Shown in pieces: positions 4,858 through 62,668 of a stretch of DNA of 64,000 nucleotides. The stretch is from assembly GCF_031199965.1 (NCBI RefSeq), contig NZ_CP133605.1, positions 3,876,501 through 3,940,500 on the forward strand, given 5' to 3'. This stretch comes from Paenibacillus sp. D2_2. Lineage in GTDB: Bacteria > Bacillota > Bacilli > Paenibacillales > Paenibacillaceae. The number at the start of each line of letters is the position of its first letter. Positions within the stretch are counted from its first letter, which is position 1. Under the pieces are notes generated by a model, which was given only the letters and a program-made list of their open reading frames with translations, searched no databases and had not been told where the DNA came from. Both the position numbers and the translations under genes were made by a program.

Positions 4858-4932
4858 AATAAAACACCCAGCCTTAGATCGCTCTTATCTTAGGCTGGGT
4901 ATTCATGGACTAAGCTTTCTCTAATTATATAT
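4858..4932 (+). repeat. Palindromic repeat, copy 1
   Basis: Core CACCCAGCCTTAGAT-CGCTCTT-ATCTTAGGCTGGGT (4864-4901), then the tail ATTCATGGACTAAGCTTTC...ATTATATATC. Lies past the stop of the deacetylase gene (minus) and could end its transcript. Tail on the right, as in the other copies. Confidence 0.85.
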
Positions 4933-4950
4933 CACCGAGCATGGCGAATC

Positions 4951-6024
4951 CTAGTTAATCTCCAAATAATCAATATAGACATCCCATGTCCCGTTATCAG
5001 CTGTTACGATAAGCTCAATTTGCTGGTTACCAGTCCCGTTGCTGATATTGTTGAGAGTATAAACCGTAGGAGTGGTCCCGCTAAAGGAGAAGGTCCCTTT
5101 CGTCTGACCGCCTATTCTCAGATCAACCTTGGCCGTGTTGGAATTATTAGAAGCGCCGCGGAGTGTAAAATTGTGGGTTCCAGTCGTAAAGTTTTGCGTG
5201 TACTTGACTGAATCACCATTGGCATATAGAGCAACTCCATTGAATGGTGAGCTGATGTTCCCGGTGTATTGACCGCTCTTCGTCATGCTCTCAGCTTCCA
5301 CTCTCGTTGCATTGGTTGGAGGGGTAGTTGAACCGCCGCCGTCAGGTGCGACTGCCCGGCCAGTTGACGTCGAGATCATACCAGAACATAGTCCGCGATT
5401 CTTCAGGTTCTGCGCGATCTGTGGAATCGCTTGGAGCGTCGTCTGATACTGGTCATGCATCAAGATCACGTCCCCGTTCTGCATTGTGCCCACAGCAGAT
5501 ACGATTTGAGCGGTAGAGGCACCGTTCCAGTCCTGGGAATCAACATTCCACAGCACTTCAGTTAGACCATTTTGCTGCTCGATCGATTTCAAGGTAGCGT
5601 TCGTCTCACCGTACGGTGGACGGAACAACTTCGGAGCGGTTCCGGTAGCTGACTGAATCGCTTGTTGTGTCTTCGTAATTTCCGATGACATCTGTGAGCT
5701 GCTCAATGTAGTCATGTGCGGATGTGTATAGGAATGATTGCCAACCCACATACCCGCGGTTACTTGAGCCTGCACCAAAGACGGGTTATTTTGCGCGTTT
5801 TGCCCCATGTTGAACATCGTTGCACGTAAACCAGCCTGCTTGAGCGCATTGAGTAGGTTTGTCGTGTTGCTTGGATTAGGTCCATCGTCGAATGTCAGGC
5901 CTACGTAACCATTCGGACAGCTGGCATCAGCTGCACTAGCTATAGGCATCATCGGAATGGAGAACATAGTGCTGAAGAGCCCTAAAGTCACTAAAACTTT
6001 TACTACCTTGGCTTTGAACATCAT
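4951..6024 (-). CDS. Secreted CE4 polysaccharide deacetylase with C-terminal CBM
   Basis: 357 residues with a signal peptide ending near IASAA (about residue 32). The NodB/CE4 catalytic domain shows TFDDGP (44-49), metal-binding HSYTHPH (97-103), RPPYGETN, DSQDW and ILMHD. These match acetylxylan esterase/chitin-oligosaccharide deacetylases of the Streptomyces AxeA type, including CSGMIS...TGRAVAP at the domain end. A Gly/Pro/Thr linker (about 225-235) leads to a CBM6/35-like beta-sandwich (RVEAESM... to WDVYIDYLEIN). It probably removes acetyl groups from extracellular xylan or chitin-type polymers. Strong ribosome site AGGAGGAGGT before the ATG. Transcription runs toward repeat copy 1. Confidence 0.9.
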   Translation of the reverse strand: MMFKAKVVKVLVTLGLFSTMFSIPMMPIASAADASCPNGYVGLTFDDGPNPSNTTNLLNALKQAGLRATMFNMGQNAQNNPSLVQAQVTAGMWVGNHSYTHPHMTTLSSSQMSSEITKTQQAIQSATGTAPKLFRPPYGETNATLKSIEQQNGLTEVLWNVDSQDWNGASTAQIVSAVGTMQNGDVILMHDQYQTTLQAIPQIAQNLKNRGLCSGMISTSTGRAVAPDGGGSTTPPTNATRVEAESMTKSGQYTGNISSPFNGVALYANGDSVKYTQNFTTGTHNFTLRGASNNSNTAKVDLRIGGQTKGTFSFSGTTPTVYTLNNISNGTGNQQIELIVTADNGTWDVYIDYLEIN

Positions 6025-6156
6025 AATACCTCCTCCTTTCTTGTAATCGCTTGCAGTTGTTATCTTAACAATTTTTTACTTAAATTCCTAATTAATAAAG
6101 TAAAGATTATGCCGTCAAAAGTATATGATTTCCCGCCTACAAAAAACGAATACAAA

Positions 6157-6182
6157 TAGGCTGCCTCTAAGGGCAGCCAGTT
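6157..6182 (-). terminator. Terminator after VOC gene
   Basis: Hairpin GGCTGCC-TCTAAG-GGCAGCC at 6159-6178, followed in the minus direction by TATTTGTATTCGTTTTTTG. It is the third instance of this stem in the first 6.2 kb (also 1038 and 1917). Confidence 0.75.
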
Positions 6183-6210
6183 TCATGTAACCGATCAATA
6201 AATGTCTTTC

Positions 6211-6597
6211 TTACGATTTCCGTGGAGTCCATTCAATTAAATTAATTGAATTTCCGTCTGGATCAAAAATATCAAAATCGAAATGGTCATTCCAGTCAGA
6301 AGACCACTGGTTTAAAGATCCCACAATAATACCTTTACTCTTTAATTCTTCATAAGCTTCTAGAATGTTACTACAAACCAAATTAAAGTTTGGTTGCTTT
6401 GATGGTTCGAGTGATTCTCCTACTTCAATCAATGTTAGTAATGTAGATTGATTTGGAAATTTGTAATTTGCTCCTCTACCATCATCCCATTGCTCAACAT
6501 CACGCAATTGTAAACCAAGCACTTCAGAATAGAAGGGTAATGCCTCGTCCAAATTGCTAACCCGAATAAATATAGTGCCTAGATCTTTTACCTTCAT
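6211..6597 (-). CDS. VOC-family (glyoxalase/bleomycin-resistance fold) protein
   Basis: 128 residues: KVKDLGTIFIRVSNLDEALPFYSEVLG at the N-terminus and FDIFDPDGNSINLIEW at the C-terminus, the two beta-alpha-beta-beta-beta halves of a vicinal-oxygen-chelate protein. The closing Glu of NLIEW is the usual metal ligand. Substrate unknown. Ribosome site GGGAGAGATAC before the ATG. Single gene. Confidence 0.8.
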   Translation of the reverse strand: MKVKDLGTIFIRVSNLDEALPFYSEVLGLQLRDVEQWDDGRGANYKFPNQSTLLTLIEVGESLEPSKQPNFNLVCSNILEAYEELKSKGIIVGSLNQWSSDWNDHFDFDIFDPDGNSINLIEWTPRKS

Positions 6598-6895
6598 TGT
6601 ATCTCTCCCTAATAATAAGATATTGAAGATTAGATTCCTCTTTTCTTAGGCCGATCCAATCAATTGCAATGAACATTGGGGATGATAATCAACAACGCTG
6701 ATAAGCAGATATTACCAGAATCAAGGCGGTAGGTGAAGAGAAAGAACAATTTATGGATAAATTTTTTAAGCTTTCTACATTACTTTACAAATTGCGGCGT
6801 ACATTGTCAGGTTTCATGGTGAAAAAATAAGCCCGCTATGCTACAATATAAAAATTGTACAAGCTCATAGGACTAGGGAGGATTTTTGAATAAAC
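6598..6895. promoter_or_regulatory. udk upstream region with likely promoter and remnant
   Basis: A -10-like TACAAT at 6842-6849 and ribosome site AGGGAGG (about 6876) precede udk. A start-less plus-strand frame (about 6700-6830) reads KAVGEEKEQFMDKFFKLSTLL and ends MVKK before a stop, probably debris of an unidentified gene. Nothing else seen. Confidence 0.35.
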
Positions 6896-7527
6896 ATGCT
6901 GATTATTGGTATTTCCGGCGGCACCGGATCAGGTAAAACAACGGTTGCCCATTCCGTCATTGACCGACTTGGTTCAGACAAAGTCACCTTTATATCCCAA
7001 GATAACTACTATAAAGATAATCCCCATCTTAGCTTTGCTGAGCGTGAGAAGATTAACTATGATCATCCTTTCGCTTTTGATAATGAACTCATGATCGAAC
7101 ATATTCATGACCTGGTGGAGGGCAAGACAGCCCATGCCCCTGTTTATGATTTCACGCTTCATGCCCGTTCTAAGACACAAACGCTAGAACTGAAGCCTAA
7201 CAATATCATTATTCTTGAAGGTCTTCACATCCTATCCGATGAGCATCTTCGTGCCATCCTGGACATTAAAGTATTCGTTGATACAGATCCTGATGTTCGC
7301 ATACTTCGCCGTGTAGTTCGAGATATTGAGGAGCGCGGACGTTCCATTCGGTCAGTACATGATCAGTATTTAAGTACGGTTAAACCTATGCATGAGGCTT
7401 TCATCGAGCCTTCTAAAAATACGCCGACCTCATCATTCCCGAGGGCGGACATAATGAAGTCGGTATCCAATTGCTAACCACATTGACTGAGAAATACTTG
7501 CACAGTGGTGAAAATTTTAGTTGTTAA
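6896..7527 (+). pseudogene. udk: Uridine kinase, frameshifted near the 3' end
   Basis: Uridine/cytidine kinase, which phosphorylates uridine to UMP in pyrimidine salvage. Walker A is GISGGTGSGKTT (residues 5-16); further family marks are SQDNYYKD, NYDHPFAFD, VYDF, IILEGLHIL and VFVDTDPDVR...RRVVRDIEERGRS. Near residue 172 an A-run has one A too few: the frame ends early as TPTSSFPRADIMKSVSNC, whereas one extra A restores KKYADLIIPEGGHNEVGIQLLTTL and the stop at 7525-7527. This final helix is standard in Udk. Intact apart from that base; probably a sequencing error in the homopolymer. Confidence 0.85.
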
Positions 7528-7544
7528 ATAGCCTGACTTCAGTT

Positions 7545-7592
7545 CATACTCCAGTCTTAGTTAGCTCCTAACTTTGGCTGGGGTATTTTGTA
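7545..7592 (+). terminator. Terminator of udk, related to the dispersed palindrome
   Basis: Hairpin ATACTCCAGTCTTAG-TTAGCTCC-TAACTTTGGCTGGGGTAT followed by TTTGTATTT. Sequence and spacing echo the CCAGCCTTAG/CTTAGGCTGG repeat, but the conserved tail is absent; it may be a diverged copy. Confidence 0.65.
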
Positions 7593-7675
7593 TTTCACGA
7601 GTTCACATGGTACAATTTTGAAGTAAATCGATTTGTTTGATTTATATATTGAATCCATGATGAGGAGTGAAGTTA

Positions 7676-8092
7676 GTGGCTGTTGATGTTTATTTGTATT
7701 TTAACGGTAATTGTCGTGAAGCTGTAGAGTATTATGCACAAGTATTCGAGACAGAGAAACCGAATATTATGGCTTACGGTGATAACCCACCTAACCCTGA
7801 ATACTCACTTCCTGAAGAAGCAAAGAACTTAGTCATGCACTCACGGCTTAACATCAATGGCAGCAATGTCATGTTCTCAGATGTCTTCCCTGGTTCGCCA
7901 TTTACTGTAGGGAACAACATCGGTCTTGCTTATATAAGCAATGATATCGATCAGATCAAACAATTATTTAACAAGCTGCAAGACGGCGGCGCGGTAAAAA
8001 TGGAACTACAAGAGACGTTCTGGAGCAAATGCTATGGTAACCTACGAGACAAATTCGGAATTGAATGGCAGCTTAGTCATGAAAATGAATAA
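7676..8092 (+). CDS. PhnB/YjdN-like VOC protein
   Basis: Start set at GTG 7676 (MAVDVYLYFNGNCREAVEYYAQVF), because GAGGAG lies 10 bases upstream; the earlier GTG at 7667 overlaps that site. The family (PhnB-like, 3-demethylubiquinone methyltransferase-like fold) is marked by LVMHSRLNINGSNVMFSDVFPG and by WSKCYGNLRDKFGIEWQLS at the end. Members have no well-defined reaction. 138 residues, monocistronic, with its own terminator. Confidence 0.85.
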   Translation: MAVDVYLYFNGNCREAVEYYAQVFETEKPNIMAYGDNPPNPEYSLPEEAKNLVMHSRLNINGSNVMFSDVFPGSPFTVGNNIGLAYISNDIDQIKQLFNKLQDGGAVKMELQETFWSKCYGNLRDKFGIEWQLSHENE

Positions 8093-8117
8093 CTGCTGAT
8101 CCGGAAGGTACTCATTA

Positions 8118-8166
8118 ATAAAGGATATAGATCATCTCTTCTCAGAGAAAATCTATATCCTTTTTT
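8118..8166 (+). terminator. Rho-independent terminator
   Basis: Stem AAAGGATATAGAT / ATCTATATCCTTTTTT around a loop that contains a small inner hairpin. Lies between the convergent PhnB-like and GNAT genes and can serve both. Confidence 0.85.
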
Positions 8167-8171
8167 GCCTA

Positions 8172-8606
8172 TTAATACTCCAGTTTATATACGACTTCCC
8201 CATCGATCACTCGGCCATCTTCCTTAAATCCTAATTTTTCATATAAATGTTTGGCCCACGCATTCTCAGGTTCAAAGCTTATGTATATGACTCGATGATG
8301 TATATCCTCCTTAATTCTTTCAAGGAGCATCTCCATTGCAGCCTTCCCATAACCTTTAGACTGATACTTTGTATCTACCATTAATCGATAAATCCAATAT
8401 TCTTGATCCTCTTCATCTATACAATACATCGTAAATCCTACGAGAACATTGTCATTATAAATTGCCAAGCAAATACACTCTGGAAATGCCTTGGCCTGTG
8501 CGAGTGAAAGCACGTTCGTCGCAACAAACTCTTTCTGTTCATCAGCAACACTTAGTTTAATGACGTCAAAGAAATTGTTTCGATCTATTTCTTTAAGTGT
8601 GATCAT
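8172..8606 (-). CDS. GNAT acetyltransferase, BltD/spermidine-acetyltransferase-like
   Basis: 144 residues with the acetyl-CoA loop YQSKGYGKAAMEML preceded by IYRLMVDTK, and the C-terminal PENAWAKHLYEKLGFK. The order and residues (VGFTMYC, WIYRLMVD, ISFEPENA...LYEKLGF, GEVVYKLEY) resemble BltD and PaiA-type polyamine N-acetyltransferases. The polyamine substrate is inferred by resemblance only. Ribosome site AGGGGGAG before the ATG. Confidence 0.8.
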   Translation of the reverse strand: MITLKEIDRNNFFDVIKLSVADEQKEFVATNVLSLAQAKAFPECICLAIYNDNVLVGFTMYCIDEEDQEYWIYRLMVDTKYQSKGYGKAAMEMLLERIKEDIHHRVIYISFEPENAWAKHLYEKLGFKEDGRVIDGEVVYKLEY

Positions 8607-8669
8607 AGATACTCCCCCTTTTCTATGAGATTAATGCATACGTGACTGTTGATATTTGCCTATTCGGGA

Positions 8670-9269
8670 TTACCGATCATTTAAGCCCTTACCATCGAGA
8701 ATTTGCGGTACACATTTTTCAACTCTGGACTCCCGGGTTTTAGATTGTTTTGGTGCAGAGAAGAACATCAAGTACGCTTTTTGCCGTCCCGGAGTCAATG
8801 CCTCGAAGGCCGTTTTTAAGGCAGGATTCTCATCAAGTTTATTTTGAAATTCATCGGCAATGTCATATTCTGTTTCCTTTTTGAATTCGATTTTCAAACC
8901 GGATTTTTCCACTTCTATGGCTGCATGAATGTATTCTTTCAAGATCGATTCCATTTCAATGATTTCTTGAACATTCGTGAATCGAATCTGACGTGCCGCC
9001 TGTACATTTTCCGTTTGTTGAATCAGAATCCCATGGGGATCCTGCAACAAGGCACCTTTATGGAATAGAAGTGCACAATATTCTTTGAATCCATGGATTA
9101 TTACAATGTTTTTGTTATCAAACGTGTAACAAGGATGCATCCATTTGAATTCTTCAGTCAACTCACAGTCAAGAACAATATCTCTCAACTTCTCATAGTG
9201 TTCCTTCCACTTTTTAGATTTACCTATGAATACATCAACCTTGGGATTCGTTTCATTTCTCATTGTCAT
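8670..9269 (-). CDS. YdeI/DUF1801-type protein
   Basis: 199 residues. The first half is the DUF1801 fold (VDVFIGKSKKWKEHYEKLRDIV, WMHPCYTFDNKNIVIIHGFKEYCALLFHKGALL). The second half is the YdeI C-terminal module (ALKTAFEALTPGRQKAYLMFFSAPKQSKTRESRVEKC). Homologues occur across Bacillales; the biochemical role is not known. Single gene. Confidence 0.8.
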   Translation of the reverse strand: MTMRNETNPKVDVFIGKSKKWKEHYEKLRDIVLDCELTEEFKWMHPCYTFDNKNIVIIHGFKEYCALLFHKGALLQDPHGILIQQTENVQAARQIRFTNVQEIIEMESILKEYIHAAIEVEKSGLKIEFKKETEYDIADEFQNKLDENPALKTAFEALTPGRQKAYLMFFSAPKQSKTRESRVEKCVPQILDGKGLNDR

Positions 9270-9337
9270 GTTAGCTAGCTGCCCCCTAATTTCCTCCTGA
9301 AACTTCTTAAATTATTTTACCTTAAGAAATAAGTTTT

Positions 9338-9811: not shown

Positions 9812-9863
9812 GAGTATCAACTCCTCTTCATTCATCTCCTAAAATCTTATCAAAGATATTTGA

Positions 9864-10073: not shown

Positions 10074-10098
10074 AGTTATCCCCTCTAATCTGATATTG

Positions 10099-12466: not shown

Positions 12467-12507
12467 CCGTTCGTCCCCTTATGCGTTAATCGCTATGGTA
12501 TCTATTC

Positions 12508-12620
12508 CGTAAATACACAAAACGACCCAACCTAGGTAGTTCATCTCGTAGGCAGGGTCGTTTGTTGGCGGAGCTTCTTCCACAATTATATATCTGTCAA
12601 TTGAGGGGCGATAGTCCTTT
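12508..12620 (+). repeat. Palindromic repeat, copy 2
   Basis: Core AACGACCCAACCTAGGTAG...CTCGTAGGCAGGGTCGTTT (12521-12563), left flank AAATACACA, tail GTTGGCGGAGCTTCTTCCAC... AATTATATATCTGTCAATTG then GGGGCGATAGTCC. Lies between two minus-strand genes. Confidence 0.85.
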
Positions 12621-12693
12621 CGTGACGTCTTTTCAGCTTAATGGGACAGAGGATAAACCTCCATAAATATAAATCTCCCTCCCTTTAATGCCT

Positions 12694-14692: not shown

Positions 14693-14702
14693 TTAATTCA
14701 CA

Positions 14703-14745
14703 AATGACCCAACCTTAGATAGCTTATCTTAGGTGGGTCATTTAT
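14703..14745 (+). repeat. Palindromic repeat, copy 3 (bidirectional terminator)
   Basis: Core AATGACCCAACCTTAGAT-AGCTT-ATCTTAGGTGGGTCATT, then TATTGTTAG, which is already the end of the minus-strand gene at 14748. It separates convergent genes and fits a shared terminator. The tail is lost or overwritten by coding sequence. Confidence 0.8.
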
Positions 14746-14747
14746 TG

Positions 14748-14939
14748 TTAGTGCTCCTGTTTTCTTTTAAAGTGATTTCTTAAATTTAAGATCCCGCTAA
14801 TACAAAACAATACTGCGACAAAAATAAAAGCATAACTCATTTTTGAATTACTAAAGTTATTAAGTAGCGATGAAACAATAAAACAAATTGCAGCCAAAAA
14901 GTTCAAAACCGCTATTAACATATAATTGGTTTTATTCAT
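14748..14939 (-). CDS. Small membrane protein (63 aa)
   Basis: Two hydrophobic helices (MLIAVLNFLAAICFIVSSLL and MSYAFIFVAVLFCISGILNL) and a basic tail (RNHFKRKQEH). Ribosome site TTGGAGATGG. No family recognised. Confidence 0.65.
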   Translation of the reverse strand: MNKTNYMLIAVLNFLAAICFIVSSLLNNFSNSKMSYAFIFVAVLFCISGILNLRNHFKRKQEH

Positions 14940-26275: not shown

Positions 26276-26289
26276 ATTGTCTACCTATT

Positions 26290-26360
26290 TCTCAACTCTC
26301 TCCCGGGAGCTCCCATCCTACTCGCTACTTATTAATTATTATGATAAATTGAATATGGCT
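26290..26360 (-). pseudogene. Fragment of a Nudix gene
   Basis: On the minus strand the sequence reads QFIIIINK, stop, RVGWELPGES, closely matching NQFIIINNTKRGGWEIPGGS of the intact Nudix gene at 26870-27334. It is a decayed duplicate of about 60 bases, 600 bases from the intact gene and on the same strand. Confidence 0.65.
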
Positions 26361-26907: not shown

Positions 26908-27334
26908 TATCTATAGCATATTTCTCTAGTCTCTTATCCTTACGTTCATTCCATCTATCATACAAATTATAAAATAAATCTCCAAAATTCATTCCTTCAG
27001 GCATATCATCTTCAAACTTTATTTCTTCAATTTCGAAATTGGGTAATGTGCTCATCTCTTCTACTTCTGCGAAGAATACCATTCCATAACTTCCGTTCAA
27101 TTGGTAAATTCCGAATGGCGTTAATTCAAATCTCACTGCTCCCGTCTCTTCATACAATTCACGACTGGCTGTATATAAAACTGATTCTCCTATTTCTCTG
27201 CTCCCTCCTGGGATCTCCCACCCTCCTCGCTTCGTATTATTTATGATGATAAATTGATTATTGTATTTGGCGATCAATATAGTGAACCTTATAATTTCAT
27301 GGTTAATTTCATTTAATTCATACCAGTGTCTCAT
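26870..27334 (-). CDS. Nudix hydrolase
   Basis: 154 residues: Nudix box GGSREIGESVLYTASRELYEETGAVRFE, preceded by NNTKRGGWEIPGG. Ribosome site AAAGGATAC. It ends KNLGFPIPLLS inside the 3' end of the convergent GNAT gene. MutT-like fold; substrate not known. Confidence 0.82.
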   Translation of the reverse strand: MRHWYELNEINHEIIRFTILIAKYNNQFIIINNTKRGGWEIPGGSREIGESVLYTASRELYEETGAVRFELTPFGIYQLNGSYGMVFFAEVEEMSTLPNFEIEEIKFEDDMPEGMNFGDLFYNLYDRWNERKDKRLEKYAIDIKNLGFPIPLLS

Positions 27335-28757: not shown

Positions 28758-28791
28758 TGGAATCAACTCACTTTCAATAATCGCTAGCATA

Positions 28792-28890
28792 TAACGTTCT
28801 TATGTTTATAAAATAACCCAGCCTTAGATACTCATATCTTAGGCTGGGTCGTTTGTTGTTTGAGTCTACTTCCATAATTATACACTCAAG
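28792..28890 (+). repeat. Palindromic repeat, copy 4
   Basis: Left flank ATAACGTTCTTATGTTTAT, core ATAACCCAGCCTTAGAT-ACTCAT-ATCTTAGGCTGGGTCGT (28813-28852), tail TTGTTGTTTGAGTCTACTTC, ATAATTATACACTCAAG. Tail on the right. Confidence 0.9.
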
Positions 28891-28992
28891 GTAAGCATAA
28901 AGTCTTTATCCTTATTCAATACAGTGTTATGTCCCGATATCCATGTTTCCCATTAGTCAAAGCACATATGTATTCCGGGCTCACATAATCAA

Positions 28993-32883: not shown

Positions 32884-32985
32884 TTCTGATAACGTTAAGC
32901 TATTCACGAAAAGACCCAGCCATTAGATAGCTTCTATCATAGGCTGGGTCTTGTGTAGTCTGAGCTTCCCCAAGCGTATCAGTCA
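32884..32985 (+). repeat. Palindromic repeat, copy 5
   Basis: Left flank TTCTGATAACGTTAAGCTAT, TCACGAA, core AAGACCCAGCCATTAGATAG-CTT-CTATCATAGGCTGGGTCTT (32910-32952), tail GTGTAGTCTGAGCTTCCCC. It lies between divergent genes, so it is not there simply as a terminator. Same orientation as the others. Confidence 0.85.
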
Positions 32986-33132
32986 ACAGAATCTTATGCA
33001 AGCAGGAGCTGCTTTATCTCGAACAGTACGCAAATAATGAGAATATCGCTTTCATTTTTTGAGAAGCCATTGACGACAATGCTGTCTATAATCAGTGATA
33101 AAGAAATTCACAACACTATGGAGGAACCCATT

Positions 33133-35450: not shown

Positions 35451-35467
35451 ATAGTAGTTTCGCTTTT

Positions 35468-35550
35468 TTCACAAAACGCCCCAGCCATAGATAGCTCTTA
35501 TCTAAGGCTGAGGCGTTTGTTATCTGAGCTTCTTCCACATACTTCGATTA
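35468..35550 (+). repeat. Palindromic repeat, copy 6
   Basis: TTCACAAAACGCCCCAGCC then ATAGATAGCTCTTATCTAAGG-CTGAGGCGTTT (35474-35519); tail GTTATCTGAGCTTCTTCCAC. Lies between convergent AraC and ABC permease genes. Confidence 0.88.
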
Positions 35551-35600
35551 CTTTAATAATCCAGTATTACTGCTTCGCAGCGACTCTTCTGCGTCTTGTC

Positions 35601-36356
35601 TTACTTCCGCCACTTCATGAACCGATAGTCCAGCAGGTCCACCAACAGGAACAAGACGAAGCCGACCAGACTGAATAGTAGGATCCCGGCATACATTTGC
35701 GGATAATCCAGTCGGAGCCATGCATCCATAATGAAGAAGCCCATGCCGTGCTCGGTGCCGTAGATTTCAGTAAAGAACAGAACCGAAATGGCTGTCCCAA
35801 GCGAGATGCGGATGGTGCTGAGGATTACGGACAACGCTCCGGGCAAGGTGACATGCCAAAATTTCTGACCCGGCCCTGCGCCTAGGCTTGTCAGCACATC
35901 ATAAGTGCTCACTGGAATGGCTTTTACTCCGTCTCGTACAGAAATGATAATCTGGAAAATCAGGATCAGCATAATCATGAGAATCTTGGAAGTCTCGCCT
36001 AGCCCGAAGAACAGCATAACCACCGGGAGAAGAGCGATCTTGGGCACCGGATACGTCAAATACACCACTGGGTCCAGCAGCTTGTTCCAGAGGGGCGAAC
36101 GCCCCATCAGAAGCCCGATCAGCAGACCGATAATTAGCGCTAGCAAAACCCCAGCAAAAATCCGCATCAGACTATAGCCGACATTCAGCACAATATCCCT
36201 TCCACCAAGGTGTCCCATTGCCTGATAGACCTCCAGCGGGCTGGGCAGCATCGGATGATGCACTAGCAGATATGCCACGTACCAGATCACATGCATTCCC
36301 AGGAACACTAGCAATAATCTCAAAATATAGTTAAGCCGTCGTCGTTTATTCACCAT
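35601..36356 (-). CDS. ABC importer permease (TauC/SsuC type)
   Basis: 251 residues, six TM helices, with the EAA-type loop DVLTSLGAGPGQKFWHVTLPGALSVILSTIRISLG that contacts the ATPase. Third gene of a binding protein-ATPase-permease operon on the minus strand; overlaps the ATPase by 7 bases. Sulfonate/nitrate/pyrimidine-precursor class; substrate undetermined. Confidence 0.88.
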   Translation of the reverse strand: MVNKRRRLNYILRLLLVFLGMHVIWYVAYLLVHHPMLPSPLEVYQAMGHLGGRDIVLNVGYSLMRIFAGVLLALIIGLLIGLLMGRSPLWNKLLDPVVYLTYPVPKIALLPVVMLFFGLGETSKILMIMLILIFQIIISVRDGVKAIPVSTYDVLTSLGAGPGQKFWHVTLPGALSVILSTIRISLGTAISVLFFTEIYGTEHGMGFFIMDAWLRLDYPQMYAGILLFSLVGFVLFLLVDLLDYRFMKWRK

Positions 36357-38090: not shown

Positions 38091-38337
38091 GGTTCTTCCA
38101 TCCCCCTATGTGTTCTATATAGAATTGGCATAGTAACGTGCCTTCTTTACTTGAGACGTCTTTCACCACTTTGCGTCTTTATTCACAAACAATATCGCAC
38201 AAAATCATATGTCCGTCAGAAGTCTCAAGCAATGTCAATTTTACACCTATAATTGCATTTTGTATATTTACAAATTTAAATATTATGCAAATTTTTCATA
38301 TACAAAGCATTCCTTTCAGCAAAAGTTCTTGGATTTG
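38091..38337. promoter_or_regulatory. Leader of the ABC importer operon
   Basis: AT-rich, no reading frame of interest. No TPP, FMN, cobalamin or SAM riboswitch core recognised on the minus strand. The transcription start of the importer operon must lie here; a specific promoter could not be fixed. Confidence 0.3.
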
Positions 38338-38412
38338 ACGAAACGCCCCAGCCTAAGAGAACTCTTAGGTTGGGGCGTTTTGTTGTTTTGACTCTTCTTC
38401 AACATACCAGTC
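38338..38412 (+). repeat. Palindromic repeat, copy 7
   Basis: GAAACGCCCCAGCCTAAGAG-AA-CTCTTAGGTTGGGGCGTTTTG (38339-38383) and a tail TTGTTTTGACTCTTCTTCAA. The stem is perfect over its inner 10 base pairs with a shorter loop than in other copies. Confidence 0.85.
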
Positions 38413-38450
38413 ATCGAAAGCTCACCCAAAATGATGGGCCTCCTTCTTTC

Positions 38451-38804
38451 TCATTTTTTTTCGTTATTCTTTTCTATTGTTTCTATATTATTATCAAACA
38501 TGTATTTCTCTAGTTCTTCCTCTATTTCTTTATTAATCTCTGAGATTATCTCTGGATGATCCTCTTTCTTTTCAAAAGCTTGGAGCCCCTCATCAATTCC
38601 TTGTTGAATCTTTTCATCTTCTCTCAAAAGTCCTAATTTTTCTCTTATTTTCTTAATGTCTTCATATATTTGTTTATTTCTTTGATACGTACTAAAGACT
38701 ATTCCGAATAAAATAACAAGAAAGATCCCTACTCCATATGGGCCGATTAAATAAACGGATAGAAATAATATGATAGCTCCAATAACCATACCGATTACTG
38801 TCAT
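38451..38804 (-). CDS. Membrane protein with coiled-coil tail
   Basis: 117 residues: two N-terminal TM helices (VIGMVIGAIILFLSVYLIG, VGIFLVILFGIVFS) then a charged, probably coiled-coil region (YQRNKQIYEDIKKIREKLGLLREDEKIQQG...). No family recognised. Confidence 0.65.
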   Translation of the reverse strand: MTVIGMVIGAIILFLSVYLIGPYGVGIFLVILFGIVFSTYQRNKQIYEDIKKIREKLGLLREDEKIQQGIDEGLQAFEKKEDHPEIISEINKEIEEELEKYMFDNNIETIEKNNEKK

Positions 38805-38844: not shown

Positions 38845-39297
38845 TCACCCTTTTACTTCACGCATAGCACCTAACACGATATTATATTTATCTGGATCTT
38901 GAACATATACATTCTTAAATTCCCATTTTCCGTGTGACTCTTTTACCGGATCATATCGAACAATTCCGCCCTTATTTTGAATGTCATCAACGATTTCATC
39001 TATCTCGTCCCAACTAACATGTATAAAGGTATCCCAGCCATAATCAGGTCCCTCCGATTCCGTTGGATAATCGGAACGTTTCTTTGAAGGAGCATTGGGT
39101 CTAACATCTTCAAGGGACTCGGCTTGTTGCAGAATAACAATCATTCCGTCACGCTCTGCATGCCCCCAACCATCAATTGTACAACCTAAGACATTACGAT
39201 AATATTCTTGTGATTTTTTTAAATCTGAGACTAACCGTACTTGAATTGTTGTTCCAAACTTCCATTTTTTGTCTGGATCATTGAATTGATTATTCAT
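38845..39297 (-). CDS. VOC-family protein
   Basis: Start ATG 39297 after GGGAGAT. 150 residues; TTIQVRLVSDLKKSQEYYRNVLGCTIDGW is the first half of a VOC fold and FIHVSWDEIDEIVDDIQNKGGIVRY...FKNVYVQDPDKYNIVLG the second. The start overlaps the end of the hydrolase gene (39299) by touching its stop, implying translational coupling. Confidence 0.8.
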   Translation of the reverse strand: MNNQFNDPDKKWKFGTTIQVRLVSDLKKSQEYYRNVLGCTIDGWGHAERDGMIVILQQAESLEDVRPNAPSKKRSDYPTESEGPDYGWDTFIHVSWDEIDEIVDDIQNKGGIVRYDPVKESHGKWEFKNVYVQDPDKYNIVLGAMREVKG

Positions 39298-46229: not shown

Positions 46230-46342
46230 CATATTCATTAGAATAGATTCGATTGGATTCACAAAACGCCCCAACCTTAGATAGCGTTTATCTTAGGCTG
46301 AGGCGTTAGTTGTCTGGACTTCTTCCATGATTATACATCTAA
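46230..46342 (+). repeat. Palindromic repeat, copy 8
   Basis: GATTGGATTCACAAAACGCC then CCAACCTTAGATAGCGTTTATCTTAGGCTGAGGCGTT (core 46264-46310), tail AGTTGTCTGGACTTCTTCCATG ATTATACATCT. The tail matches copies 9, 10 and 13 closely. Confidence 0.9.
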
Positions 46343-46358
46343 AAACCATGGAATTCCA

Positions 46359-46825
46359 TTATTCAAATAATTCAACTTTTAAGTTTTTATTATTAATCAT
46401 CACGTATGTATGCAACTGACTTCTATGATGGTATAAATGACATAGTATTTCTAACAACCATTCATATCTCGTATATCTAACCCCCAATATGATTGTTTAT
46501 ATTCACTCAATTCATCTATAGAATATTTCAAAAACTGCTCTACTAGTTCCGTATAATTATCTATTAATGCTTCCTTAATTTCGTTAATTGTTTGTTTAGT
46601 GTTCTTATCATAATAATCTTTCATTTCCTCCTGAGTGGCCTCATTTAATATCAAATAATCAGCCTTACATATTAATGCAATATGGCACAATAATTCTCGT
46701 ATCGTTCTCTTATTATCTATCGGTTTATAATCTAAATCAGCTTCCGATAGCTGTTGTATAATTTCATTAACAGAGTCAATGGCTACTTTCATTTGATGAA
46801 ACACACCAGATAAATATATATTCAT
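46359..46825 (-). pseudogene. DinB-family protein, frameshifted
   Basis: Start ATG 46825 (MNIYLSGVFHQMKVAIDSV) after AAGGAG. Helices with RTIRELLCHIALICKADY (first His). The frame ends early (GLDIRDMNGC) at 46451; the other frame gives RYEWLLEILCHLYHHRSQLHTYVMI, with the HLYHHRSQLH metal motif, and a stop at 46359. One base is missing near 46470. Confidence 0.75.
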
Positions 46826-48127: not shown

Positions 48128-48154
48128 GTGCAACTTAATAAAAGTGCATTTTCT

Positions 48155-48235
48155 TGAAACGACCCTGCCTTTAGATAGCTCTTATCTTAGGCTGGGTCGT
48201 TTGTTGTTCGAGCTTCCCATGATTATACACCTGGA
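48155..48235 (+). repeat. Palindromic repeat, copy 9
   Basis: GAAACGACCCTGCCTTTAGATAGCTCTTATCTTAGG then CTGGGTCGTTT (48156-48202), tail GTTGTTCGAGCTTCCCATGA TTATACACCTGG. It follows the GNAT remnant and precedes the convergent GNAT gene end. Confidence 0.9.
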
Positions 48236-48253
48236 AAAATCCTATCCCTGCTT

Positions 48254-49191: not shown

Positions 49192-49593
49192 TTAATCTAA
49201 GAAATCACAGCTATATATATTCACCTGCTCGTTATTAATTTCAAACACCGTGATAGACTTGCTTTTGAAAAGATAGCTCTTACCATCCACAAGAAGACCA
49301 TTAGCCAATATATTAGACTGATAGTCATTCTGATCATCAGAATTTATAACAATGATGTTTACTTTCCCCTGATCCAATGCGCTATACACTTTGATATTCT
49401 CGTTATTGCTTTCTACTTTTATTAATGAACCTCTCAAAAAGTTTGACATTAAATAAAAACTGTAAAACGACGGTCTTTTTTCGCCAAATGTTTCGTTGTT
49501 GATCGTTAATTGCCCGTTTGAAATCAGCCCGTGTTCGCCACTGTCTTGTAGGTTCCAATAATTTGCGTAATCAACGCCATTTTGCGAGCTGGC
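49192..49593 (-). pseudogene. C-terminal fragment of a glycoside hydrolase
   Basis: The frame is open from 49593 and reads NGVDYANYWNLQDSGEHGLI, then SFYSFYLMSNFLRGSLIKVESNNENIKVYSALDQGKVNIIVINSDD to QVNIYSCDFLD. This is the C-terminal beta-domain plus end of the barrel of a GH39/GH51-like arabinofuranosidase/xylosidase, judging from NYWNLQDSG...YSFYLMSNF. The 5' part is missing: the open frame stops exactly where repeat copy 10 begins. Confidence 0.65.
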
Positions 49594-49690
49594 TTATGAT
49601 AGCAGTTATCATAGGCAGGCTCATGTCATTCAAACCATCTTCCATTATTATACATCCAATAACCTAGGGGTGATAGTTCATAACACACTT
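49588..49690 (+). repeat. Palindromic repeat, copy 10 (diverged)
   Basis: GCTGGCTTATGATAGCAGTTATCATAGGCAGGCT (49588-49622) lacks the outer CGACC arm; the tail (CATCTTCCATTATTATACATC, CAATAACCTAGGGG, GATAGTTC) matches other copies well. Sits between the truncated hydrolase and the shortened TOMM maturation gene. Confidence 0.75.
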
Positions 49691-55152: not shown

Positions 55153-55260
55153 TTTCTGATAACGATGTTGTATTCACGAAACGACCCAGCCATAGATAAC
55201 TCTTATCTTAGGGCTGGGTCGTTTGTTGTGCGCTATATTTTCCTTAATTATACATTTTAC
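55153..55260 (+). repeat. Palindromic repeat, copy 11
   Basis: Left flank TTCTGATAACGATGTTGTAT TCACG, core AAACGACCCAGCCATAGATAACTC then TTATCTTAGGGCTGGGTCGTTT (55178-55223), tail GTTGTGCGCTATATTTTCCT TAATTATACATTTTA. The best example of the full element. After the tail comes ATTCAAGGGACGATAGCCCC, echoing copies 2 and 10. Confidence 0.92.
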
Positions 55261-55314
55261 ATTCAAGGGACGATAGCCCCGATACATGTGGTGTTATTTG
55301 GAGGATTAGTTCCA

Positions 55315-55997: not shown

Positions 55998-56079
55998 TGA
56001 ACTACCCCTCATTTCGCCCATACTGATCTATCAGATAACGTTCTTGTATTCAGACATCACACCACCTTATGGCACCTAG

Positions 56080-57933: not shown

Positions 57934-58023
57934 GTATTCTCCACCCTACATGTTTTAAATGTTTAGTATACTTTGCAGACTTTGTCGGGACTCAGCGTAG
58001 ATACGGTGTTATCGGATATTCAC

Positions 58024-58569
58024 TTACAAAATCATCTTGTACCACCCTGCTTCACCTACAAAATCATCTCTTGTTACATGTTCTTCACCTATTATTTTTC
58101 GGTAATTATTAATCGTTCCATCATGAGTCACTAGATAGATTCTACAATTCAATGTCTTATTCCATTCTATAAATCGATGGACATATCCCTTGAATTTTGT
58201 TGTCCATAAATCTTCATTAAAATCAACGATCTCAAATTCTCTATACAGTTCTTCAATGTCTTGTCTTCTATAGATCTCATCGCAAGCTAATGTAATCCAT
58301 TCTGGATTCTGTGGAAACATTCTTGGACCAATAAAAGGACTAATATATTTCTTTAAGTTCTGTCGTTCTGTAAAAATATTAGTCGTTTCAATTGTTCTTC
58401 TTGTTGGACTTGAAATAATAATATCCGTTGGCTTTAAGTCAAATATATCTGTCAAATTTCTTGCCTGTACTTTACCTTTTTCCGTTAGAGCTGGGTGCCG
58501 AATGTCTAAACTGTTTGGTAAATTAATTGTGTGTTCTCCTTGTGCATGCCTGATAAATACTATCTCCAT
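58024..58569 (-). CDS. Histidine phosphatase-family protein
   Basis: MEIVFIRHAQGEHTIN has the RHAQGE catalytic motif (normal RHG/RHA), and the second His is in YLVTHDGTINNYR. Related to phosphoglycerate-mutase-like phosphatases; substrate unknown. ATG 58569 has AGTGAGTG upstream, inside the end of the DJ-1 gene (58579); the two are adjacent and probably cotranscribed. Confidence 0.8.
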   Translation of the reverse strand: MEIVFIRHAQGEHTINLPNSLDIRHPALTEKGKVQARNLTDIFDLKPTDIIISSPTRRTIETTNIFTERQNLKKYISPFIGPRMFPQNPEWITLACDEIYRRQDIEELYREFEIVDFNEDLWTTKFKGYVHRFIEWNKTLNCRIYLVTHDGTINNYRKIIGEEHVTRDDFVGEAGWYKMIL

Positions 58570-58578
58570 TGTATACAC

Positions 58579-59163
58579 TCACTTTATAACAATAATTCCT
58601 TGCACTTCGTACGGATAATCGATTTGTTTCTTAACTACATCTACTGCTTCCTTATTTACAAAACGCTCAACGATATATAATGCAAGATCAATTGATGTGG
58701 ATACTCCACCGGCTGTAATAAGATTTCCGTCTTTAACAATTCTGGCTTTGATAACTTCCTTACAGTATGGTTCTAATAATTCATATGCATTTGGATGTGT
58801 AGTCGCACTCTTATTCTCCAGGAACCCTGCTGCACCTAATAATAGTGATCCAGTACAAACTGATACCAAATGTTCAACATTAGCGGCTTGGCGCAGCCAC
58901 CCGATGAATTCTTCATCAAATCGAAGCTTTCGTGTCCCCATTCCTCCAGGAACAAATACTAAATCATACTCTGACAGATCTGGTTTGATTTTATCCACTT
59001 TAATGGTTAGTCCTAATTCATCGGAGATTTCTTCTGATAATCCACAAATATCCCATGTAGTTCCTTTGGTTTCCTCAAACATATTCAATCGATAAATCAC
59101 ATCATAAAATCCAATAAAGTCCAAAAACGTGAGTCCGTTAAAAACAACAAAGCCAATTTTCAT
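58579..59163 (-). CDS. DJ-1/PfpI-family protein
   Basis: 194 residues. KIGFVVFNGLTFLDFIGFYDVIYRL, FVPGGMGTRKL (nucleophile elbow region), and VSVCTGSLLLGAAGFLENKSATTHPNAYELLEPY, where the Cys of VCTGS is the nucleophile. Resembles the isonitrile hydratase/AraC-N class of the DJ-1 family, roles uncertain. RBS GAGGGGGGA is very strong. Operon with the phosphatase gene. Confidence 0.85.
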   Translation of the reverse strand: MKIGFVVFNGLTFLDFIGFYDVIYRLNMFEETKGTTWDICGLSEEISDELGLTIKVDKIKPDLSEYDLVFVPGGMGTRKLRFDEEFIGWLRQAANVEHLVSVCTGSLLLGAAGFLENKSATTHPNAYELLEPYCKEVIKARIVKDGNLITAGGVSTSIDLALYIVERFVNKEAVDVVKKQIDYPYEVQGIIVIK

Positions 59164-59279
59164 TGAAATCCCCCCTCTGTTTCTAAGAGAATCTGCTAAT
59201 TATGGTCTTTCTTCTATTGAAGATCGACTTTATATATTTCATAGAAAAGTTTCTTCTAATAATTAATGAGGAAACCAAC

Positions 59280-59816
59280 TTACAGAAAATACCTCTGTAT
59301 CACTTCATCATCCCAGATCTGTACTTCAATATATCTTTCAGGTCCTTTATCTCCATTCCGATTCCATTCCTGTGGCATTTTAAATTCATCGATTACTTTA
59401 ACTATCTCTTGTTTGGAATATACCTGTCTACGATACGGCTTATTATCTTGATACCTCATCGTTGGAAATAGATCACCATATGTGAAACTAATTGTATTTT
59501 CATCAAACTCATCTAAGTTAATTGTTATCCAACTAGGATTCATATACCATGTCTTTAACCAATCGCAAGATCCCAGTGTCATATAGTGCGGAAAAAAGTT
59601 CTTTGGTTTTCCACCCTTAGCCATGAATTGTTCTCTGGCTATCTTCTCGAGATCTCTTCTAATTAGCATATAATCATCAGGTCTCTGACTTGCAAACAGC
59701 TTTCCGTCCTGTTTGATTTGTCGTGAAACATCAAGAGCCTCGTCAATTGAAAGACTAGATAGATTTCTTAATGGTCCTATATCCTTTTCAAAATAATGAT
59801 ACAAAGTATAATTCAT
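59280..59816 (-). CDS. Conserved hypothetical protein (178 aa)
   Basis: MNYTLYHYFEKDIGPLRNLSSLSIDEALDVSRQIKQDGKLFASQRPDDYMLIRRDLEKIAREQF...GSCDWLKTWYMNPSWITINLDEFDENTISFTYGDLFPTM... Soluble; no known domain recognised. I recall proteins of the same layout in Paenibacillus and Clostridium. Repeat copy 12 lies immediately upstream. Confidence 0.7.
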   Translation of the reverse strand: MNYTLYHYFEKDIGPLRNLSSLSIDEALDVSRQIKQDGKLFASQRPDDYMLIRRDLEKIAREQFMAKGGKPKNFFPHYMTLGSCDWLKTWYMNPSWITINLDEFDENTISFTYGDLFPTMRYQDNKPYRRQVYSKQEIVKVIDEFKMPQEWNRNGDKGPERYIEVQIWDDEVIQRYFL

Positions 59817-59859
59817 GTGTATTGTTCCTTTGTTTTTTATTTACTGTTCTTCAGAGATT

Positions 59860-59930
59860 TCATCTAATGTTTGTATTCACAAAACGACCCAGCCTTAGAT
59901 AGCTTTTATCTTAGATCGGGTCGTGTATGA
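59860..59930 (+). repeat. Palindromic repeat, copy 12
   Basis: TAATGTTTGTATTCACAAA, core ACGACCCAGCCTTAGATAG then CTTTTATCTTAGATCGGGTCGT (59884-59924). The tail (GTATGACAGAATGGG) is poorly preserved. Between two minus-strand genes. Confidence 0.85.
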
Positions 59931-59966
59931 CAGAATGGGCAATTGCGCCGCAGCATATATGCATTA

Positions 59967-61316
59967 TTAAACGAATGAACTCTGATTAACATCAGATAGT
60001 TGCAGCATTTCTACCAAATAAGGGTTCATGAATACACCTGAAGGATCAAGCTCTTGACGAAGGTGAAGAAATGCATCCCACTTCGAATATACCGTACGTA
60101 GCTGCTCCGCGTGCATCGTGTGCATCTTGCCCCAGTGCGGTCTCCCGCCATACCGTCTACAGATCTCCTCTACTTTGGCAAAATAGTCGGCATACTCCAT
60201 CCCACGGTACATATGTACAGCAATATAGCCAGAATCACGTCCATTCGCCGGACTAAGCCATATATCGTCTCCCTGGACATAACGGCATTCGACTGGAAAA
60301 TGAACAGCAAATTGGTATTTATCTACTGCATCGCGTATTTCCTCAAGTACCATTCGCAAGCGATCTGCCGGGACGCTGTATTCCATTTCATTAAATCGAA
60401 CGAGCCTCGGCGTCGCGAAAATGCGGTGACTATATCCCACTTCCTGCACATCTGGCACGCTTGTTGCTGATAATCGGCTTATCGGTTTACAAAGGCGAGG
60501 AATGAAACGGCAACACTCCGACAATAACCAGAATAGCGCATTCTCCATCAGCATGATTTTCCAGTAGCTCCAGCGGCTTGGCGTTCCGGGGACCTCATCC
60601 GTCTTATTGGTCAGCTTTATTTGAGCAATATCCGTGTAAGGGAACCAATAAAATTCGAAATGACGGTTTTCCTTTTTAAATAGATCGAGCTGCTCAAGGC
60701 ATTGGGAAAACGGCATTTTGCTGCTTGTATAGCAGAGCGCGTACGAAGGTATAACACGAAGCTTCACCTTCACGATAATTCCGAACACCCCTAGTGACAC
60801 CTGCATCGCCCGAAAAAGTTCTTCATCCTGCTCGGCTGAACATTCGAGGATTTCCCCTGCCGCTGTAACTACCGTCAAACCTACCGCTTGCGTTGCAAGG
60901 CTCCCGAGTCGTTCTCCTGTCCCATGTGTTCCTGTACTGATCGCCCCTGCAATGGATTGCGCATTAATATCGCCCAGATTCTCTTGCGCGACCCCATAGG
61001 CATGCAATTCTTCCCCGAGACGGTCCAGCTTTGTTCCACCCCACACCTCGGCAATCCCCTTCTCAGAATCAACAGCAATCATACCCTGCAATTGATCCAA
61101 GGAGACCAATACATCATCGGTCTGGACGAGCCTTGTAAATGAATGTCCGGATCCGACGACACGCAGCTTACGTCCTTCGGCGCCACATTCCTTAACAATC
61201 CCGACCACCTCTTCTACGCTGGCTGGATATACAATGCTTCTCGGTAATCCGCGTACGAGTCCTGACCAATTACGCCATTCTTTCTTATTGCGCTCCTTCA
61301 AATCTACAGAAAGCAT
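59967..61316 (-). CDS. FAD-linked sugar-lactone oxidase (D-arabinono-1,4-lactone oxidase-like)
   Basis: Start ATG 61316 (MLSVDLKERNKKEWRNWSGLVRGLPRS); the frame opens at 61394. About 449 residues: VAO-type FAD domain (RKLRVVGSGHSFTRLVQTDDVLVSLDQL; GTHGTGERLGSLATQAVGLTVVTAAG), and the ALO domain (FPVECRYVQGDDIWLSPANGRDSGYIAVHMYRG; RPHWGKMHTM; HLRQELDPSGVFMNPYL). Oxidises aldonolactones or a related sugar alcohol. Its start lies inside the 3' end of the upstream PLP gene (stop at 61285), overlapping by 32 bases. Confidence 0.85.
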   Translation of the reverse strand: MLSVDLKERNKKEWRNWSGLVRGLPRSIVYPASVEEVVGIVKECGAEGRKLRVVGSGHSFTRLVQTDDVLVSLDQLQGMIAVDSEKGIAEVWGGTKLDRLGEELHAYGVAQENLGDINAQSIAGAISTGTHGTGERLGSLATQAVGLTVVTAAGEILECSAEQDEELFRAMQVSLGVFGIIVKVKLRVIPSYALCYTSSKMPFSQCLEQLDLFKKENRHFEFYWFPYTDIAQIKLTNKTDEVPGTPSRWSYWKIMLMENALFWLLSECCRFIPRLCKPISRLSATSVPDVQEVGYSHRIFATPRLVRFNEMEYSVPADRLRMVLEEIRDAVDKYQFAVHFPVECRYVQGDDIWLSPANGRDSGYIAVHMYRGMEYADYFAKVEEICRRYGGRPHWGKMHTMHAEQLRTVYSKWDAFLHLRQELDPSGVFMNPYLVEMLQLSDVNQSSFV

Positions 61317-62491
61317 AGTCCGTCCCCCGATATGTCGTTGTCTTACCAACGATACTGCCATTCGAAATGTAGTAGAGATGTGCGAATCGTTCACATAACT
61401 CTCCTGCCTTACTATGACGCATAAAGATCGGATCGCCGAGTTTCAGCTCTTCTAGCCCGTTGTAGCGGATTGGCGTCTGAACTTCGCCCGCCCCTTCCAT
61501 CGCAAGAAGTGCCGTACCTTTCGGCAGATATGGACGCGGCAGTTTGTCACTGCCTGCAGCACCTGAAGCCGTGTATCCACCGCCTAAGCAAGTGTAGAGA
61601 TCGCCACGGGGCTGACGCACGATCTCGATCGCATACCCTGCGGCGGGCATTAAGGTGAAGTCCCGGTAGTGGTCGAACAGGCCGGGCGAATCGAACCCCA
61701 GCCGGCTGTAACCTCGGTGACGGCTGGCTCCATGCTGCTTGTATGTAGGCTGCCCGTGCCACCTGCATTCACGAACCGCAGCGGAGGAAGACCCAAGCGG
61801 TCGATCTCCCTGACCAGTTCGGCCCGCCGGGCAGCGGCTTCACGGATCGAGCGGCGCTTGAGCAGCCGAACGATCGCGTTCTTCATCACCTGCCCAGGTA
61901 CGCTGTCGCCTAAACCTGCGACCTGCGCTTCGTAGCCCATGAGGCCGTCGAGCACGACGTGCTTTGACTGCGCGATGCGCCGGGCGAGACCGAGCGCCGC
62001 TGCTGTGGAGCGTATTGGCGAGCGCCATACGCCGAAATGCAGCCCCGGGACATCGATCGACATATCAATGTCTACACAAAGCGGCAGCCTCACACCATAC
62101 TTGGCTGCTGCCGCTTCCGCCTGCTCGACATGCGTCTCGCAGTCAACCATCAGCGTGATGCTGCGCCCTTCACGCTGATGTATAGCGACGGACTCGAGTA
62201 GTCGTGCGTCCGTCGCAGGGTAGCCTAGCAGCAAGTCGGTGAATCCGTGCTGCGCGAGATGGAGTGCTTCGGCACCGTGAAGCACATGATCCCTTGAAAC
62301 TGCGCATTTGCCTGAAGAATGCGCCGCAGTACATCAACAGAGCGGATCGATTTGCTCGCAATGCGGACTTTTTTTCCATTCGCCCGATGAAGAACGCTCT
62401 GAATATTCTGCTGCAGCAGGTCCAGATCAACGAAGGCAAAGGGCATCGGTAGCCCAGCGCAGACTTCTTTATAGTAACGATAATCACGCAC
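61285..62491 (-). pseudogene. Alanine-racemase-fold PLP enzyme (D-amino-acid aldolase/deaminase type), frameshifted twice
   Basis: Three frames make a ~400-residue protein. First MRDYRYYKEVCAGLPMPFAFVDLDLLQQNIQSVLHRANGKKVRIASKSIRS (PLP Lys in ASKS), then ALHLAQHGFTDLLLGYPATDARLL... VTAG, then FDSPGLFDHYRDFTLMPAAGYAIEIVRQP to TYRGTDYAFCRFEGA. Shifts lie near 62270 (TGCCGAAGC) and 61690 (GCTGGGG). This type of fold-III PLP enzyme (D-threonine/serine-type aldolase) is often next to ALO oxidase genes in Paenibacillus. Substrate inferred, not shown. GC content is visibly higher than in the flanking genes. Confidence 0.75.
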
Positions 62492-62589
62492 TTAACTCGA
62501 CCTCCTTTGTCTGGAAGATACAAGATTTCTTGTATTATTAATATTCTAACAATAGAGAGATAACCCATATTTTCTTATGTATTTTATAT

Positions 62590-62668
62590 ACAAACAACCC
62601 AGCCTTAGATACCTCTTATCTTAGGCTGGGTCGTTTGTTGTCTGAGCTTATTCCATGATTATATCTGG
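62590..62668 (+). repeat. Palindromic repeat, copy 13
   Basis: AAACAACCCAGCCTTAGATACCTC then TTATCTTAGGCTGGGTCGTTT (62592-62636), tail GTTGTCTGAGCTTATTCCATG ATTATATCTGGACAAC. In a 331-base gap upstream of the divergent genes; the rest of the gap shows only a small leader for 62823. Same orientation as all others. Confidence 0.92.

Follow-up and report, generated by a model that had tools for sequence, protein, structure and literature searches.

What are the palindromic repeats that recur, always facing the same way, along a 64,000-nt stretch of the Paenibacillus sp. D2_2 chromosome (GCF_031199965.1, NZ_CP133605.1, positions 3,876,501-3,940,500 of a single-contig genome of 5.75 Mb)? This whole stretch is called the window below, and coordinates are counted from its first letter, extending outside 1-64,000 wherever the repeats do. 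A first-pass annotation had listed thirteen copies and offered three readings: a replication-linked motif, a miniature inverted-repeat transposable element (MITE) inserted one way, or a cassette-joining site. We argue for the last of these. There is hardly any doubt that the repeats are attC-type sites from a decayed array of cassettes, and with considerable confidence we hold the fuller reading, that they belong to a partly decayed, sedentary integron-like cassette array that lost its integrase, the sites being moved in relatives by a recombinase devoid of I2, the insertion specific to the integron integrase IntI.

A one-way array of foldable sites

All thirteen listed copies were located in the window, and a weaker fourteenth was added at 7546-7593. 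Searches allowing up to three mismatches returned 13 matches to the left arm of the hairpin (0.02 expected), 19 to its right arm (0.39 expected) and 4 to the adjoining tail (0 expected). The single orientation emphasized in the annotation is true of 14 of 14 copies in the window, and it continues uniformly beyond: a profile hidden Markov model and two covariance models, applied to the surrounding 224 kb, delimited an array of 42 sites, from -12,923 to 117,655 (approximately 130 kb), with 42 of 42 in one orientation. As the hairpin nearly equals its own reverse complement, the strand of the short copies was taken as the higher-scoring of the two. When the whole genome was searched with one copy, all of the 25 matches except for one place (two matches) fell inside 3,875,959-3,994,155, and a replication-linked motif is not supported, the array copies making up one 130-kb cluster. 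At least two further genomic places lie outside the array, near 2.477 and 2.787 Mb, represented by lone attC-like sites, both on the opposite strand (G000:C1:2477650-2477779 and 2787080-2787237).

The intact sites are 122-163 nt long, from ATAAC at the start to ACGTTAT at the end, and the two ends pair; complete sites at 106-117 kb reveal the parts gone from most of the window copies. Followed along the minus strand, on which most genes lie, a typical site is ATAAC-ACC-GTATTCACG ... CGTGAATAC-AAGAAC-GTTAT, the order of an intact site being ATAAC-spacer-L'' at the start and L'-spacer-ACGTTAT at the end. Three hairpins are found between the paired ends. The annotated hairpin, present as described, is the third of these, but it makes up only the inner part of the site; the longer site, the integrase and the decay had escaped the annotation. 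Likewise, its tail and left flank are real and shared by the copies, but they are not separate features, the former lying in the second hairpin (and being mostly gone from the 59.9-kb copy), and the latter being the 3' end of the site. Inner stems differ among other sites of the array, and both these stems and the site length vary freely, with the pairing retained. In many sites of the annotated type (alignment A2), the middle hairpin has GATGTATAATCATGG in its loop, a word that resembles a promoter -10 element and is kept across genomes. A promoter inside the site was considered, the middle loop often being TATAAT, yet no -35 at proper spacing was seen by eye, and this candidate was dropped.

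The conservation of the fold was evaluated on 71 of 76 sites of 134-166 nt (154 of all lengths), split by hand into two alignments, both built by sequence (MAFFT). For 44 sites from 13 genomes, a hand-written fold of four hairpins leaves 89.5% of cells paired, compared to 32.5-41.8% with slid partners, and shows 148 two-sided changes versus 52.7 in shuffles and a covariation score of 0.267 versus 0.122, none of 500 shuffles scoring as high. For the 27 sites of the annotated type, the predicted fold consists of 24 pairs, 18 of them with compensatory changes. Folding energy alone cannot choose the strand, because either strand of a single site folds much more stably than its shuffles, as exemplified by the site at 106.9 kb (z of -6.15 and -6.40 on the two strands). 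Several hallmarks of canonical attC sites are in place, namely AAC and GTT ends, paired R and L boxes, a conserved fold and free inner sequence, attC status being judged here by our own models rather than by IntegronFinder. As regards the extrahelical L-box bases of canonical integrons, an excess of spacer bases on the R' side is seen instead: this spacer exceeds its counterpart in 50 of 56 sites from Paenibacillaceae and in 47 of 51 from elsewhere, the excess being 3 or 4 nt in most (spacers were left free). As a control, the generic rule finds only 13 sites in six canonical arrays, and we claim no spacer difference from canonical attC.

Could the repeats be shared bidirectional transcription terminators, spread by homologous recombination? 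The hairpin is GC-rich and is often found at gene ends, as would suit such a role. However, no T-run stands behind it, and a terminator consensus scan of 44-64 kb returned 13 matches, versus 13.1 in shuffles, none of the 13 on any of the six repeats there (6 of 14 window copies), bearing out the argument of the annotation against plain terminators. Terminators would also leave unexplained the uniform orientation, the paired outer ends and the integrase described below, and we give this explanation almost no credence. The only Rfam match on a repeat, mir-3075, was rejected as due to chance (26.8 bits versus a gathering score of 91, E 0.61).

A recombinase without I2 in the relatives

What, then, would move such sites? 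The genus was sampled by 40 genomes, our own (G000) and 39 sister genomes, and 17 of the latter carry a tyrosine recombinase that matches TIGR02249 in pieces of approximately 87-120 bits, skipping roughly positions 180-235 (a piece above 87 bits defines these 17; the next best score was 77). Canonical IntI, at the TIGR02249 cut-off of 265, was found in none of the 40 genomes. Ten of the 17 loci were fetched, 40 kb each (23 kb for one), and in all ten the integrase heads an array, of 3-20 sites each, starting close to the integrase 3' end, with 122 of 123 sites over a score of 17 sharing the common direction of their genome. In a scan of named genomes for relatives of the integrase, the best 80 of 581 were kept as loci (L numbers), and these include 11 Paenibacillaceae loci with sites (nine Paenibacillus, Saccharibacillus kuerlensis, and Cohnella lupini), in which 77 of 77 sites are located behind the integrase, in one orientation, between unrelated genes. 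Four low-scoring single site matches were obtained besides, in L118, L121 and L144, and in two Paenibacillus loci (L096 and L098) the sequence stops within 0.8 kb behind the integrase, with no sites visible. It is here that a MITE or a REP-like (repetitive extragenic palindromic) element, repeatedly inserted in one orientation, becomes scarcely believable, palindromic as the copies are, and numerous, and of similar size: they form a single cluster with no dispersal, paired changes distinguish the inner stems between sites while the ends persist, and their polarity relative to the integrase is constant.

The integrase aligns with IntI, without the I2 insertion: the respective region measures 25-28 residues in 48 relatives versus 67 in 11 canonical IntIs, as measured on one open frame per locus, 32 of the 80 loci having given no protein by the pattern used. 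It is equally close to XerA and to IntI, and four members score 202.3, 222.2, 211.7 and 206.9 with the XerA model NF040815, whose cut-off is 220 bits. Most of the members read possess an extra N-terminal domain of approximately 80 residues, exemplified by residues 1-77 of L092, an alpha/beta domain in front of the integrase core with no Pfam or confident PDB match; modeled alone from a single sequence it reached a pLDDT (predicted local distance difference test) of 70.8, with no PDB match below E 0.39. Site counts by model R1, made across 39 genomes of the genus, had a median of 15 in the 17 genomes with the integrase and 7.5 in the 22 without (our own included), at a one-sided p of 0.004 that is only indicative, up to 75 candidates having been scored per genome, and kinship ignored.

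Two further kinds of evidence point to this gene. One is a candidate attI. GACGTTA or GAAGTTA is found approximately 92-143 nt behind the integrase stop in eight loci and GGAGTTA behind it in four more (G002, G014, G018, G019), giving an attI-like GTTA beside the integrase in 12 of 19 loci; in our own genome it is absent, along with the integrase. The core is often followed, at the cassette start behind attI, by a common word, GTTANNNGAAA (G002, G014, G018, G019, G024, G025, G026, G038). The other is the position of the cassette boundaries. Genomes G020 and G038 are 95.7% identical from ahead of the integrase through TATAAATGACGTTA, and diverge from there on; the pairs G024/G026 and G019/G014 diverge directly behind GTTA, only a short GAAA being common afterwards. 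On the array side, two shared blocks (99.7% and 98.8% identical) stop at AACGTTA, with different neighbors beyond, and G020 possesses one cassette in four copies, bounded inside TAACGT, the last copy abutting attI. The boundaries thus fall inside ACGTTA, not resolved to a single base, in a pattern that matches, as far as genome comparison can tell, what insertion at the attI end would predict. As to the cassettes themselves, 115 segments of 150-1600 nt (median of 652 nt) separate neighboring sites in 17 loci, and in 94 of the 108 segments having an open reading frame (ORF) of at least 60 aa the longest one follows the attC direction, cassettes being of one or a few genes along that direction. 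The cassette-joining reading is supported by all of these, the cassette structure, the attI, the integrase adjoining in relatives and the boundaries at the predicted core.

Position, polarity, attI and boundaries together make it very likely that the sites are moved by the I2-less integrase. In the mechanism we propose for the relatives, a tyrosine recombinase at the array end would join attC-type sites to the attI, located roughly 90-145 nt behind its own stop codon, and cassettes would enter at the attI end with a common direction, every one with an attC of its own. This recombinase, kin to IntI and XerA, would do the joining without the I2 that canonical integrases use on folded single-stranded attC. 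The folded single strand would be the substrate, and the R'-side spacer, longer by 3-4 nt, may take the strand-choosing role that falls to I2 and extrahelical bases in the canonical systems.

That the integrase acts on folded single strands is likely. In an alternative that is possible, if rather doubtful, the array and the integrase are the same, and the sites are recombined as double-stranded DNA, in the manner of Xer and dif, the fold serving, for example, in transcription ending. The missing I2, in an integrase as close to XerA as to IntI, speaks for this alternative, as does the tie of I2 to single-strand use in the available text of two papers (PMC4792948, PMC7790495). However, compensatory changes keep the whole site paired, beyond the core, and a plain double-stranded site would need only short arms; length and inner stems, moreover, are free to vary with the pairing retained. 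Another possibility is that a canonical IntI acts from elsewhere, the neighboring I2-less recombinase being a bystander. Canonical integrases can act in trans on cassettes of clusters of attC sites lacking an integrase (CALINs), according to the available text of PMC9668308. Not only is IntI missing from the genus sample, however, but none was found over the cut-off in five genomes checked from other groups that carry such arrays or integrases (Brucepastera, Flavobacterium limicola, Halanaerobacter, Cohnella lupini and an Azoarcus metagenome-assembled genome, or MAG), and the I2-less gene is constant in position and polarity, all of which makes a distant IntI very improbable. Among 299 Bacillota genomes, one has a canonical IntI (375 bits), located at the end of a contig (G162:C122:3188-4054; L172).

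A number of observations weigh against our interpretation. The evidence is from sequence throughout, and recombination itself is inferred from it. The seven PF00589 recombinases of our own genome all lie away from the array, and none is of the array-integrase kind. In the fold, 22 of the 44 sites do not form the outermost pair, and 17 do not form pair 9-172. Some of the integrase genes are interrupted, that of G025 for example; G028 has the integrase and no site (in 450 contigs), and several genomes devoid of the integrase have many sites nonetheless, G001 (59) and G011 (35) being examples. The attI was not found by the pattern used in 7 of 19 loci. GTTA is the end point of two of the five array-side blocks that close relatives have in common, and not of the other three: one of these is the other half of the first block, split in G020 by an element of approximately 1.2 kb, and two end elsewhere. 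One copy in G026 has other letters replacing TAAC. In the tree, the array-linked rows group with moderate support (90/79); 8 of 102 proteins were excluded from it, some rows are partial, and L185 was labeled as array by closeness to P. amylolyticus alone. Finally, 17 loci with at least 4 kb downstream, about one third of the wider loci, show fewer than two sites. The element in G020 is an insertion-sequence-like element of 1222 nt in two 100% identical copies (G020:C1, 4924-6145 and 16368-17589 of the fetched 40 kb), one of which splits the shared cassette.

Wider distribution and known systems

Is the arrangement peculiar to Paenibacillus? A geometry-only rule (TAAC, 2-4 nt, 8 paired bases, a free interior, 5-8 nt, GTTA) applied to the 80 loci found 108 forward sites, versus 3 with mirrored spacers and 3.7 in shuffles. 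A total of 104 were downstream of the integrase and 2 well upstream, despite more upstream sequence being covered (the integrase end was set at approximately 11,050 for most loci). Of the 48 loci whose downstream sequence measures 1.5 kb or more, 21 contain at least two sites: nine Paenibacillaceae, a Bacillus MAG, Fusibacter, Brucepastera, two Flavobacterium, Arundinibacter, a Bacteroidetes MAG, two contigs of one Nitrospirota MAG, and MAGs of Nitrospinota, Atribacterota and Altarchaeota. Sites of the same geometry follow relatives of the integrase in seven phyla, partly in MAGs, whose contigs are possibly misbinned (the sites of L144 and L145 are nearly identical, and a single MAG includes both L114 and L160). 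In L112 and L136, repeats outside the generic rule are found behind the integrase. In the family of Brucepastera, 10 of 40 genomes encode an IntI over the cut-off and Brucepastera does not, and therefore both integrase kinds occur in one family.

Comparison with known systems brings out both likeness and difference. The sedentary integrons of Vibrio and Treponema resemble these arrays in the long one-way arrays of small genes, in attC with AAC ... GTT ends, and in attI beside the integrase. Their crossover lies inside the R' box (G/TT), to which the boundaries inside ACGTTA may correspond here. In the Treponema integron the integrase gene points toward attI, as it does in the Paenibacillus-type arrays (available text of PMC3607928). 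Unlike in the canonical sedentary integrons, the Paenibacillus-type integrase is without I2 and mostly has the extra N-terminal domain, and the site consists of an outer stem plus three hairpins. The array in our genome is like a CALIN in having 42 sites and no integrase near, and differs in that the matching integrase of the relatives is not IntI. XerA resolves chromosome dimers at dif; the array integrases differ from the XerA type (NF040815; PDB 4a8e, 5hxy) by the extra N-terminal domain and by their linkage to attC arrays. In pdif modules, dif-like sites of approximately 28 bp, used by XerC/XerD, are placed around genes; the sites of the present arrays exceed that length and share one orientation. 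The integrons described in archaeal MAGs likewise have attC arrays and an attI behind the integrase, and archaeal IntIs carry the IntI-specific additional domain (available text of PMC9668308), whereas the recombinase on the Altarchaeum MAG contig L144 has 26 residues at the place of I2.

As judged from the sequences, the array departs from a canonical integron in I2 and still appears to work like an integron; we infer an I2-less integron lineage from this. More tentatively, we lean toward a second widespread integron lineage, in Bacillota, Bacteroidota, Spirochaetota, Nitrospirota, Nitrospinota, Atribacterota and an archaeal MAG, whose XerA-like integrase would never have acquired I2 and would handle foldable attC otherwise, perhaps via the R'-side spacer excess or the N-terminal domain, the lineage representing either a stage that preceded I2 or a solution reached in parallel. 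Acquisition of I2 is regarded as what made an integron integrase out of a Xer-like recombinase. If our interpretation is true, integron-like arrays are common in Paenibacillus-type Bacillota, detection tools that require the IntI-specific domain overlook them, and attC sites could predate the domain thought to read them; arrays of foldable sites beside an I2-less relative would make the question of the origin of I2 and attC directly testable. The joint origin of the two has been called a chicken-and-egg paradox (in the available text of PMC4792948), and a lack of intermediates has been remarked upon (in that of PMC7790495). One survey, in its available text, lists one complete integron and a few CALINs in the whole phylum Bacillota (PMC9024848), and the few CALINs that it reports in Firmicutes genera could include such arrays. 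Among the matches listed in open-licence PMC papers (subscription papers and preprints being outside scope), no description of such an I2-less array system was present.

The decayed array in the window

The D2_2 array itself, 42 attC sites with no integrase beside them, is a CALIN, and the window is a decayed portion of this sedentary array; decay is greatest in the window relative to the rest of the approximately 130 kb. No convincing integrase remnant was found near it with tblastn (five integrases against 224 kb; best E of 0.016 over 54 aa). Integrase fragments with stop codons do occur close to attC-like sites in two other genomes (G011:C1:4627695-4627982 and G017:C2:278807-278956), and they fit decay, as if arrays repeatedly lose their integrase.

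The state of the individual window sites, all reading on the minus strand in the attC direction and all called by the profile and covariance models, is as follows. Both ends are present in two of them, at 28791-28930 and at 55159-55297, the latter scoring best in the window (103 bits). The sites at 12504-12633, 32889-33046, 35459-35604, 38320-38459 and 59864-59970 are diverged, those at 46253-46369 and 62590-62687 have incomplete ends, that at 48153-48237 is partial, and that at 49584-49680 is both partial and diverged. At 4857-4933 the hairpin and part of the middle persist, at 14699-14758 the hairpin part, and the weak site at 7546-7593 is a hairpin only. A lone 3' end of an attC-like site, outside the 42, is found at 56035-56054, also on the minus strand, with one difference from the end motif.

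Among the 63 ORFs of the window, six match GNAT acetyltransferases and five Nudix, along with DinB, glyoxalase and other accessory families. Certain genes here have relatives inside the arrays of other species, among them 58579-59163 in that of G019 (85%) and 38845-39297 in that of G025 (74%). Regulators and enzymes occupy long site-free stretches of the region, which may be later insertions or decayed cassettes. A common insertion place was considered and rejected, the gene matches between our region and the ten sister loci being scattered. Directly behind the last, truncated site, at 117.6 kb, prophage-like genes (a GH25 lysin, a holin-like protein, tail proteins) begin from approximately 118,320 (L030:14320-20000 and L031), occupying the spot at which one would look for the array's integrase end. 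Repeats of other kinds, not attC-like, include two near-identical intergenic pairs, 1028-1057 with 6149-6178 (93%) and 1061-1120 with 2116-2175 (92%). In addition, a 14-bp unit repeat of the TACTTACTACTTAC type is found at 886-962, and a 73-nt repeat pair, 84% identical, at 26284-26356 and 27189-27261.

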